Below, in pieces: positions 15,118-21,930 of a DNA stretch of 64,000 nucleotides (position 1 is its first letter; each line of letters starts with the position of its first letter). A model generated the notes under the pieces. That model saw nothing but the letters and a program-made list of their open reading frames with translations, was not told where the DNA came from and did no database searches. The position numbers and the translations under genes were made by a program. Source of the DNA: Rhizobiales bacterium NRL2. GTDB lineage: Bacteria > Pseudomonadota > Alphaproteobacteria > Minwuiales > Minwuiaceae. Location: the NCBI GenBank assembly GCA_001664005.1, contig CP016093.1:1929001-1993000 (forward strand), written 5' to 3'.

Positions 15118-15666
15118 TCAGCCCGCCAGCGAGGCTTCGACGTACTGGCGGAAATGCTGGATCGGCGGGGTGCGCATCGTCGGGTCCTTGGCCAGGTCGT
15201 CCCAGCGGCGGAGCTTCACGGCTTCCTGCGCGAAGGGACGGTGGACGAAGTACTCGGCCTCCCGGCCCGTGAAAGGCCCGCCCTGCACCGCCAGCGAGGT
15301 GACGGAGGCGGGCGAGAGCGTGGCGAAGTACTCCAGATCCGTGGCGCAGAGAAAGCGCTTGGCGTCGACATGCAGCCGCACCGGCTCGGTCACGTCGGGA
15401 CCGAACCACTTCGCCAGTTCATCGGCGCCGATCGCCTCGTGACGCAGGTCCTTGCCCTGGTTCGCGGCCTCGGCGTCGTCGTCCAGCAACAGGTGCCCGT
15501 AGTCGTGCAGCAGCGCCGCGGTGATCGTGGCGGGGCTGGCGCCGTCCCGTTCGGCCAGCAGGGCGCACTGCACCCCGTGGGCGAGCTGGGTCACGGCCTC
15601 GTTGCCGTACATCCGGCCGCCGCGTGCAGCCAGCAGGTGCAGGATCTCGCCGGCAATATCGCTCAT
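15118..15666 (-). CDS. PhnZ-like HD-domain oxygenase (phosphonate catabolism)
   Basis: A 182-residue HD-fold protein of the type associated with phosphonate operons. It contains the metal residues His30, His54-Asp55, His76, His99 and Asp156. From memory, the diiron oxygenase PhnZ has the same set with nearly identical spacing (34, 58-59, 80, 104, 161). The PhnZ Tyr24 and Glu27 lid positions correspond to Tyr20 and Glu23 here, and Lys103 follows His99 as in PhnZ. PhnZ oxidatively cleaves 2-amino-1-hydroxyethylphosphonate to glycine and phosphate. Its ATG overlaps the phnM stop as ATGA. It may instead be a phosphohydrolase; the substrate is unproven. Confidence 0.78.
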   Translation of the reverse strand: MSDIAGEILHLLAARGGRMYGNEAVTQLAHGVQCALLAERDGASPATITAALLHDYGHLLLDDDAEAANQGKDLRHEAIGADELAKWFGPDVTEPVRLHVDAKRFLCATDLEYFATLSPASVTSLAVQGGPFTGREAEYFVHRPFAQEAVKLRRWDDLAKDPTMRTPPIQHFRQYVEASLAG

Positions 15667-16799
15667 GCGACCCGCCTTCCCTCGCGCCAGACGCCGCGCA
15701 CGACCGGCAGGCCGTCCACCAGCCGGACGCGGACGAGATCGGCGCGCAGGCCCTCGGCGATCTCGCCCCGGTCGGCGAGGCCGGTGGCTTCCGCGGGGTT
15801 GACCGTCACGGTGCGCATGGCGTCGGCGAGATTCATCTCCGGCGCGTGGCGGGGCAGATCGAACGCCGCCTGCAGCAGGCTGTAGGGGATGTAATCCGAG
15901 GAAAGGATGTCGAGCAGTCCCAGCCGAGCCAGCTCGGCGGCGGCGATATTTCCCGAATGCGAACCGCCCCGGACGACGTTGGGCGCCCCCATCAGTACCT
16001 TCATGCCATGGCCGTGGGAGGCGCGGGCGGCTTCCTCGCGGGTCGGGAACTCGGCGATGGCGACGCCGTCGGCGATGGCTTCGGCGACATGGCCGGCGGT
16101 GGCGTCGTCATGGCTGGCGAGCGCCAGTCCCATGCTGCGCGCGCGCTCGACGATGCGCCGCCGGTTGTCCGGCGCAACCCGGGCGCCGCGCGCCTGCCGG
16201 TCGACGATGAAGGCGTCCAGCTTCTCGGTCGACCAGCCGGTCTTGCCGCCGTAGTAGGTCCGGAACTGGTCGAGATCGGTGAACTGCCGCTGGCCGGGGG
16301 TGTGATCCATCAGCGAGACCAGACGGATGCGGGGGCTGTCGGCCATGCGTTCGAATTCGTCGGCGGCGTTGTCGGCCGACAGCTCGCAGCGGATATGCAG
16401 CAGATGGTCGGCGCGGGTCATGTCGGCGTCCAGCGCGTCGGCGATCGCGCCGGCCAGCACCATGGCGTCTTCGCCGACATTTTCCGAATCGGCGTCGTCG
16501 CCGACGCGCAGCGCATCGAAGACCGTGGTGATTCCGCTGGCCGCGACCTGGGCGTCGTGGGACAGCACCGCCGCGATCGGGTTCCATTTCACCTTCGGCC
16601 GCGGCAGGTAACAGCCCTCCAGGAAATCGGTGTGCAGCTCGATCAGGCCGGGCAGCAGGAAGTCGCCGTCGATATCCTCGCCCGTGACGCCACGGCCCTC
16701 GGAGAAGGCGGCGATGCGCCCGTCACGCAGAACCAGCGAGCCGGTGACGACGCGGTCGCGCAGGACGATCTGCGCGTTGTCGAATACCGTCTCGCCCAT
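15663..16799 (-). CDS. phnM: Alpha-D-ribose 1-methylphosphonate 5-triphosphate diphosphatase
   Basis: A 378-residue amidohydrolase-superfamily enzyme. It closely follows the PhnM motif series: LIELHTDFLEGCYLPRP, SHDAQVAASGITTVFDAL, LMDHTPGQRQF, ALASHDDATAGHVAEA, GAPNVVRGGSHSGN and LDILSSDYIPYSLL. PhnM removes pyrophosphate from the triphosphate intermediate of the carbon-phosphorus lyase pathway. ATG 16799 is chosen because GGAGGG stands nine bases upstream; a longer reading to 16847 lacks this. It is first in a two-gene operon with the PhnZ-like gene. No phnGHIJKL genes are in the window. Confidence 0.92.
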   Translation of the reverse strand: MGETVFDNAQIVLRDRVVTGSLVLRDGRIAAFSEGRGVTGEDIDGDFLLPGLIELHTDFLEGCYLPRPKVKWNPIAAVLSHDAQVAASGITTVFDALRVGDDADSENVGEDAMVLAGAIADALDADMTRADHLLHIRCELSADNAADEFERMADSPRIRLVSLMDHTPGQRQFTDLDQFRTYYGGKTGWSTEKLDAFIVDRQARGARVAPDNRRRIVERARSMGLALASHDDATAGHVAEAIADGVAIAEFPTREEAARASHGHGMKVLMGAPNVVRGGSHSGNIAAAELARLGLLDILSSDYIPYSLLQAAFDLPRHAPEMNLADAMRTVTVNPAEATGLADRGEIAEGLRADLVRVRLVDGLPVVRGVWREGRRVA

Positions 16800-20947: not shown

Positions 20948-21117
20948 CGGTTGTTGCTCCAATCTTGTCTCGACCGGTTTTGTTGCGCATGTAGCCGCGC
21001 CGCCGCCGCGTGCAAGTCCGCAACCGGTCATTGCCCCGGCGGCGTTCCCCGCTACCTTTCCCCGGGACGGACAAGCGGCCGGCCTCCCGCCGGCGGCCCG
21101 GCGAGGGGGACAAAGCC

Positions 21118-21930
21118 ATGACGGCCCGATCGGACGCCTTCCTGAAGCTCCACGTGAAGGGGCAGCCCTTCGTCATGCCCAATCCATGGGACGCTGGGTC
21201 CACCCGAATTCTGGAGAGCATGGGATTCCCGGCGCTGGCGACGACCAGCGCCGGACTGGCCTTCAGCCTCGGGCGGCGCGACGCGGAAGGCGCGGTCAGC
21301 CGCGCTGAAGCAATCGCCCACGCGCGCCTGATCGCGGAAGCCACCGATCTGCCGGTCAACGGGGATCTGGAAAATGGCTTCGGCCCGAGGCCGGAGGACT
21401 GCGCGGAGACGGTGCGGCAGGCGGTCGAGGGTGGTCTCGCCGGCTGCTCCATCGAGGACACGACGGGCGATCACACGAACCCGATCGTCCCATTCGAATT
21501 GGCGGTCGAACGTGTGGCGGCTGCGGCCGAGGCGGCGCGCCAGGCCGGCGGGCTGGTGCTGACCGCGCGGGCAGAGAATTTTCTCTATGGCCGGCGGGAT
21601 CCGGACGACACCATCCGCCGGCTGAACGCCTTCGCCGAAGCCGGGGCCGATGTGCTTTACGCCCCCGGCCTGCGTGATATCGAGACGGTCCGCAACGTCA
21701 TCTCGGCCGTCGACAGGCCGGTGAACGTGCTGGCTTCGCCGGGGCTGACGGTCGCCGCGATTGCCGAGGCGGGCGCGGCGAGGATCAGCCTGGGCTCCGC
21801 CTTCGCGCTGGCTGCGCTGCGCGGTCTCGTCGGCGCGGCCGAGGAGGTCATGGAGCGCGGCAGCTTTGAATTCGACTCGGCGAAGCCCGGCTATCCCGAA
21901 ATCAGCGCGCTGATGAAGGGGCGGAGCTGA
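21118..21930 (+). CDS. Isocitrate lyase/PEP mutase-family protein
   Basis: A 270-residue TIM-barrel enzyme of the isocitrate lyase/phosphoenolpyruvate mutase superfamily. Key segments are VMPNPWDAGSTRILE, the metal-site strand PVNGDLENGFGP and CSIEDTTGD. The KKCGH loop of true isocitrate lyases is absent, so it belongs to the short lyase/mutase branch, whose members cleave or rearrange small 2-oxo or oxaloacetate-like acids. The substrate is not predictable. ATG 21118 follows GAGGGGGA. Despite the family name, nothing here links it to the phnM pair 4 kb away. Confidence 0.87.
   Translation: MTARSDAFLKLHVKGQPFVMPNPWDAGSTRILESMGFPALATTSAGLAFSLGRRDAEGAVSRAEAIAHARLIAEATDLPVNGDLENGFGPRPEDCAETVRQAVEGGLAGCSIEDTTGDHTNPIVPFELAVERVAAAAEAARQAGGLVLTARAENFLYGRRDPDDTIRRLNAFAEAGADVLYAPGLRDIETVRNVISAVDRPVNVLASPGLTVAAIAEAGAARISLGSAFALAALRGLVGAAEEVMERGSFEFDSAKPGYPEISALMKGRS

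Follow-up and report, generated by a model that had tools for sequence, protein, structure and literature searches.

The window analysed here, a 64,000-nucleotide stretch of the Rhizobiales bacterium NRL2 genome, holds an HD-domain gene (HD below) that is best read as encoding a mixed-valent diiron oxygenase of the PhnZ/TmpB kind; its oxygenase activity is itself predicted from sequence and a fold model. HD is coupled to the only phnM found in the genome, and genes of its family recur beside C-P lyase genes. We put at about 60% the probability that HD is a PhnZ-type oxygenase working without a dedicated hydroxylase, through which alpha-hydroxyphosphonates would be used as a side branch of C-P lyase.

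Table 1. Features of the phnM-HD pair (window coordinates)
Feature	Position	Strand	Description
HD gene	15118-15666	minus	Phn-HD protein of 182 aa; HD domain of the PhnZ/TmpB type, predicted diiron oxygenase
phnM	15663-16799	minus	alpha-D-ribose 1-methylphosphonate 5-triphosphate diphosphatase; 378 aa, ATG at 16799
ATGA	15663-15666	minus	shared phnM stop and HD start; read from sequence and start analysis

On the minus strand phnM comes first and HD second. Direct reading and start analysis bore out the coordinates, strands and lengths that an earlier note on this DNA had given for both genes, together with their ATGA coupling. The same -4 overlap was present in the sister genome (G007, locus L043) and in a Reyranellaceae MAG (L206), and these two and the window were the three clear ATGA overlaps among the 18 phnM-HD junctions compared. 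The genes overlapped or abutted at L116; the HD start codon lay 8-35 bases past the phnM stop at 11 of the 18 junctions and 29-59 bases past it at L175. Looser junctions were seen at L087 (TTG at 79, gap of 0.3 kb) and L085 (gap of 0.6 kb, with no HD start codon in the stretch between). A Pho-box-like consensus pattern matched the window once against 2.1 matches expected, and not near phnM. On the plus strand, positions 21010-21930 of the window encode an isocitrate lyase/PEP-mutase superfamily protein with weak scores against phosphonate models; its best model was prpB (73.7 bits), and every score was under the cut-off.

The PhnM protein scored over the cut-offs of four NCBIfam PhnM equivalog models and of one subfamily model, with NF011983 as the best model (572.1 vs 486 bits) and TIGR02318 scoring 491.5 vs 390.55 bits; it stayed under the cut-offs of the remaining PhnM models listed, and no PDB sequence match was found for it at E ≤ 0.001. 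The genome is a single contig of 4.70 Mb (completeness 99.99), in which the window phnM was the single TIGR02318 match at E ≤ 1e-20 and the other two matches of the protein search were partial, at 20-22 bits. The earlier note had described the pair as lacking C-P lyase genes. No PhnJ was found within the window, but the claim is false genome-wide: the search for phnGHIJKL that the note itself proposed located a phnF-phnGHIJKL-DUF1045 cluster holding the one PhnJ of the genome (3,273,204-3,274,016), approximately 1.33 Mb from the window phnM. The phnK of this cluster is contained in a longer open frame, phnCDE follow at about 3.284-3.288 Mb, some 7 kb past DUF1045, and a phnN-like gene lies at 4.371 Mb. 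We take the DUF1045 gene of the lyase clusters to be the gene of the 2H phosphoesterase RcsF. No phnM was tagged beside the distant cluster, and the note's picture of a phnM without its C-P lyase was thus wrong.

A similar division was seen in the sister genome, with phnM-HD on contig C69 and phnF-GHIJKL-DUF1045 on C65, where no phnM was tagged in the 20 kb read. G002, from another genus of the same family, had everything in one place, in the order phnGHIJKL-DUF1045-phnM-HD-phnN. Because no phnM was tagged beside the distant lyase, the only phnM found is in the window and G002 keeps the genes together, the best reading of phnM-HD is that it belongs to a C-P lyase operon or regulon from which it has become detached; as to the direction of change, we infer that the joined arrangement came first. 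On C14 the sister genome carries another phnM-like gene, a divergent one (L044; 37% identity, 143 bits). A number of genomes had a second, divergent phnM-like gene at approximately 270-380 bits in the TIGR02318 search (e.g., G176:C37:172831-173946 and G189:C1:2667301-2668407), lying in some of them near C-P lyase genes on the opposite strand. A second phnM copy outside the operon is described as possible in PMC9381506.

The HD protein passed the cut-off of the NCBIfam Phn-HD model TIGR03276 (224.2 vs 214.6 bits) and missed those of the TmpB equivalog NF049941 (151.4 vs 300 bits) and of the G. maris-type hydroxymethylphosphonate dioxygenase NF052439 (161.6 vs 300 bits). Its best PDB sequence match was TmpB (6npa, 108.1 bits), and PhnZ (4mlm) matched at 98.6 bits. 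All nine residues named in the earlier note aligned with PhnZ and TmpB residues: His30, His54, Asp55, His76, His99 and Asp156 shared columns with the iron ligands of 4mlm and 6npa, as Tyr20, Glu23 and Lys103 did with their counterparts. The six ligands correspond to the H...HD...H...H...D motif given for PhnZ-type enzymes in PMC8177086, which also describes how the Glu of the YxxE loop contacts the amino group of the substrate in PhnZ/TmpB; this substrate loop is present in HD as Tyr20 and Glu23. Five invariant histidines have been described for Phn-HD (PMC11203657); candidates for these in HD are His30, His54, His58, His76 and His99, which are widely conserved among its relatives. An AlphaFold2 model built from 13 HD sequences beside or near phnM had a mean pLDDT of 91.8. 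When it was compared with the PDB by Foldseek, all 10 matches at E ≤ 0.001 were TmpB or PhnZ (query TM 0.85-0.88), and the first hydrolase appeared only at E 0.15. Profile, residues, predicted fold and PDB matches thus all back the PhnZ-type diiron oxygenase assignment of the earlier note. A generic HD phosphohydrolase or house-cleaning enzyme, placed after phnM by chance, would agree with the phosphohydrolase annotation on some relatives and with the lack of tagged phosphonate neighbours at most fetched unlinked loci. However, we consider it very unlikely, given the TIGR03276 score, the retained YxxE loop and six iron ligands, a Foldseek list headed by TmpB and PhnZ only, and the enrichment near C-P lyase described below.

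A sample of 289 genomes of the class was searched for strong HD matches, defined as ≥130 bits with weaker HD-domain matches left out. There were 71 of these in 61 genomes, from a match list that ended among the weak scores, while PhnJ was found in 48 and PhnM (E ≤ 1e-20) in 56 of the 289. Fourteen strong HDs lay within 5 kb of PhnJ, compared with about 0.12 expected for the 45 HDs in PhnJ genomes under random placement in a 4.4-Mb genome with kinship ignored. Fourteen had a same-strand phnM no more than 700 bp away, and the union of the two sets was 17 of 71 HDs, from 14 family codes and all in PhnJ genomes. A strong HD was present in 37 of 48 PhnJ genomes vs 24 of 241 others (Fisher p 6e-21) and, once tmpA-linked HDs were removed, in 33 of 48 vs 12 of 241 (p 5e-22), both p values ignoring genome size and kinship. 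Another 18 HDs, other than the 17 linked to C-P lyase, were within 300 bp of a TmpA match, which was over the cut-off in all but one case (17 of 18; G170 under the cut-off). The remaining 36 were linked to neither, and 22 of them were in PhnJ genomes. Two genomes (G009 and G155) had two HDs each, one with C-P lyase and another next to tmpA, a sign of different HD roles.

The surroundings were read for 63 of the 71 strong HD loci, with gene tags taken from phmmer matches between our own ORF calls and proteins from the window genome or from G003; the ORF calls are biased towards G+C-rich genes and break down where a locus is A+T-rich, as at L122. Besides the window, 13 fetched loci had HD directly after phnM, and phnG-phnL lay upstream in 10 of the 13. 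HD did not always adjoin phnM and was also found elsewhere in lyase loci, beside phnC, after phnL or after phnCDE. Among the unlinked HDs whose surroundings were read (29 of 36), two had a phnCDE-like transporter within 5 kb and the other 27 had at most ABC-ATPase-like tags, indicating that the HD family may have a wider role. In those two (L133 in G198 and L136 in G088), the transporter was directly upstream of HD with no C-P lyase genes in the stretch, an arrangement resembling the Variovorax, Acidovorax and Polaromonas loci L156, L182 and L193. The HD of G094 (contig C270), a split gene by appearance in the HMM output, was one ORF in the ORF call and was rejected as split.

The link with C-P lyase was also seen in named beta- and gammaproteobacterial and actinobacterial loci. 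A search of named genomes, built from HDs beside or near phnM, gave at least 355 confirmed relatives, of which the best 80 were kept. Among these best 80, 11 had phnI or phnJ in the flank (a count that is not a frequency), including Pelagibius, Acidovorax, Cupriavidus and two MAGs, one gammaproteobacterial and one actinobacterial; one had phnM only, eight had only transporter, phnN or DUF1045 tags, and the remaining 60 were without any of these tags over the thresholds used. Pelagibius sp. Alg239-R121 has the genes together as phnGHIJKLM-HD at locus L175.

The residues above were compared in the 33 HDs with phnI/phnJ or phnM in the stretch (window included). Columns 20, 30, 54, 55, 58, 76, 99, 103, 121, 128 and 153 were invariant, and column 156 was Asp in 32 and Glu in one. 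Column 23 was Glu in 27, among them L168, L208 and L209 with a loop one residue shorter (YxE), Ser in five and Gln in one (L097). These columns were nearly as conserved in the 107 HDs without phnI/phnJ/phnM tags, where column 23 was Glu in 84, indicating that the linked HDs are not set apart by residues. The five Ser23 cases were the genus-mates G003-G006 and G008, and with the Gln of L097 they suggest that amino recognition is not universal. We rejected the HDs of these genus-mates as orthologues of the window HD, because both the loop, with Ser in place of Glu23, and the tree assign them to another subgroup. They lie beside phnC and have a YGLS loop (L038, L039, L041, L042 and L045 in G003, G004, G005, G008 and G006, respectively). 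The phnC-side HD of the genus-mates comes from this other Phn-HD subgroup, which makes two subtypes of HD that accompany C-P lyase within the one genus.

The backbone of the HD tree was weak, with 22 of 67 inner branches starred, and PhnZ formed a long branch; the closest characterised relative was therefore not named from it. The PhnZ/TmpB placement expected in the earlier note held at the level of the family. Within the family, TmpB-type proteins formed a supported clade with the window HD outside, and with PhnZ on its long branch the tree gives no finer placement. When all C-P-lyase-linked HDs were constrained to one clade (22 rows vs 48), the constraint was rejected with a p-AU of 0.000891, a value weakened by the group having been named after the tree was seen. 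The linkage was thus probably gained, or lost, more than once. TmpA matches over the cut-off adjoined HDs outside the main TmpB clade at L098 (G269), L100 (G045) and L102 (G172), possibly a second TmpA/TmpB-like lineage.

As the earlier note had stated for the PhnY dioxygenase, a hydroxylase partner was not nearby: none of the 10 PhyH (PhnY-type) matches of the genome was in the window. No TmpA match at E ≤ 1e-100 was found in the genome. Nine of the 10 PhyH proteins were scanned; their best score against the methylphosphonate hydroxylase model was 39.3 bits with a cut-off of 500, one was over the ectoine hydroxylase cut-off, and no NCBIfam model for the AEP hydroxylase PhnY* was among their matches. 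In 17 of 18 linked loci, no hydroxylase was evident by eye in the first 90 residues of untagged ORFs up to 4 kb from HD; at the eighteenth (L104) a 2OG-oxygenase-like ORF lay near HD on the opposite strand. An unrecognised hydroxylase may be present among the PhyH proteins of the genome, and another possible candidate is a TauD/gamma-butyrobetaine-hydroxylase-like protein that is 32% identical to a TmpA (L218 1393-2577, at 3.757 Mb of the same genome), whose gene adjoins a glnD-like gene by eye. If either type of protein acted with HD from a distance, the two would make up a scattered PhnY*Z-type pathway and phnM would be a mere neighbour. The 10 PhyH matches, the TauD-like protein and the tmpA genes beside 18 of the 71 HDs in the class sample lend this some weight. 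However, it is rather unlikely in view of the low scores of the nine PhyH proteins scanned, the ectoine hydroxylase match of one of them, the 4-kb locus of the TauD-like gene, in which no phosphonate gene was evident by eye, and the 17 of 18 linked loci where inspection by eye showed no evident hydroxylase.

HD most likely acts on a small (R)-alpha-hydroxyphosphonate, which it would oxidise with formation of phosphate and a carboxylate. The substrate would probably be aminated, e.g., 1-hydroxy-2-aminoethylphosphonate (HAEP), an amino substrate being favoured by the retention of Glu23. HD would be made alongside PhnM within a C-P lyase regulon, co-regulated with the distant genes. The window PhnM would then serve the C-P lyase encoded about 1.33 Mb away, and phosphonates would presumably enter through PhnCDE. 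C-P lyase would handle alkyl- and aminoalkylphosphonates, and HD probably handles their alpha-hydroxylated relatives in parallel, in a branch predicted to have no dedicated PhnY*/TmpA hydroxylase. PhnZ is somewhat substrate-tolerant yet specific for (R)-alpha-hydroxyphosphonates (PMC10574752). Where its gene lies near phnWX/phnWAY, this has been taken to suggest that (R)-HAEP must be processed separately (PMC8154272), the same tributary logic as for HD with C-P lyase here.

The coupling had been explained in the earlier note by either a hybrid pathway or a different substrate for one of the two enzymes; to these we add a third option, likelier than both, that HD recurs as an accessory gene in C-P lyase operons and probably allows parallel use of alpha-hydroxyphosphonates. 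In a hybrid pathway, HD would act within the C-P lyase route on a ribosylated or activated (hydroxy)phosphonate intermediate around the PhnM step. HD closely follows phnM in many families, and the rejected one-clade constraint would fit repeated selection for the link. We nevertheless judge a hybrid quite improbable, since HD occupies other positions in lyase loci too, the PhnZ residues compared, Glu23 included, are mostly kept, and the C-P lyase of E. coli works without HD. The PhnP role in clusters without phnP, moreover, has already been assigned, as likely, to RcsF (PMC3840354). A bolder version, in which an aerobic variant of the C-P lyase pathway includes the phnM-coupled HD as a step in its own right, oxidising a phosphonate intermediate made by PhnI/PhnM, seems to us a long shot. 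If it were true, several bacterial groups would have an O2-dependent exit from the pathway that yields a carboxylate and not an alkane (methane, for example).

With methylphosphonate as substrate, C-P lyase releases methane, whereas the known PhnZ-type enzymes yield phosphate and a carboxylate. If the accessory reading is right and the oxygenase regularly accompanies C-P lyase, these bacteria would use a wider range of phosphonates, and form a wider range of by-products, than their C-P lyase genes suggest. Surveys that use phnZ as an AEP marker may then count C-P lyase accessory genes too; the marker splits into subclades, and only the original one is AEP-specific (PMC8316502). The reading further offers a specific substrate test for Phn-HD proteins without a hydroxylase partner. 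The protein family is already known; new here are the recurrence, now measured, of its link with phnM and C-P lyase, and the finding that the pair stands apart from the lyase cluster in this genome. No account of a phnM-HD pairing was found in the literature covered, mostly the text of open papers.

Several known systems can be set beside the pair. PhnZ (HF130_AEPn_1; PDB 4mlm, 4mln, 4n6w and 4n71) has the predicted fold, the six iron ligands, the YxxE loop and the Lys in common with HD, at 35% identity in the structural alignment with 4mlm_A. However, PhnZ partners the hydroxylase PhnY* on AEP (PMC10574752), whereas HD adjoins phnM with no PhyH in the window. TmpB is the best PDB match of HD (37% identity with 6npa_A in the structural alignment), but TmpB-type genes adjoin tmpA and form the clade outside which the window HD falls, under the TmpB equivalog cut-off. 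The Achromobacter PhnHD belongs to the same family (TIGR03276), with the window HD above the curated cut-off. In PMC11203657 it is placed close to phosphonatase operons, has the residues known to bind cofactor and substrate, and gives a model resembling TmpB. Its context is thus a phosphonatase operon, whereas that of the window HD is phnM and, in relatives, C-P lyase operons. PhnM is an equivalog-level match to the PhnM of C-P lyase, but its gene is detached, outside the phnG-M cluster and about 1.33 Mb from phnJ. In another sample, phnZ co-occurred with C-P lyase genes at only 21% (PMC9381506). The same paper reports that some C-P lyase operons contain genes for substrate-specific hydrolases; the text covered does not say which genes these are and does not mention a phnM-HD pair, and these hydrolase cases are kin to the link between HD and C-P lyase described above.
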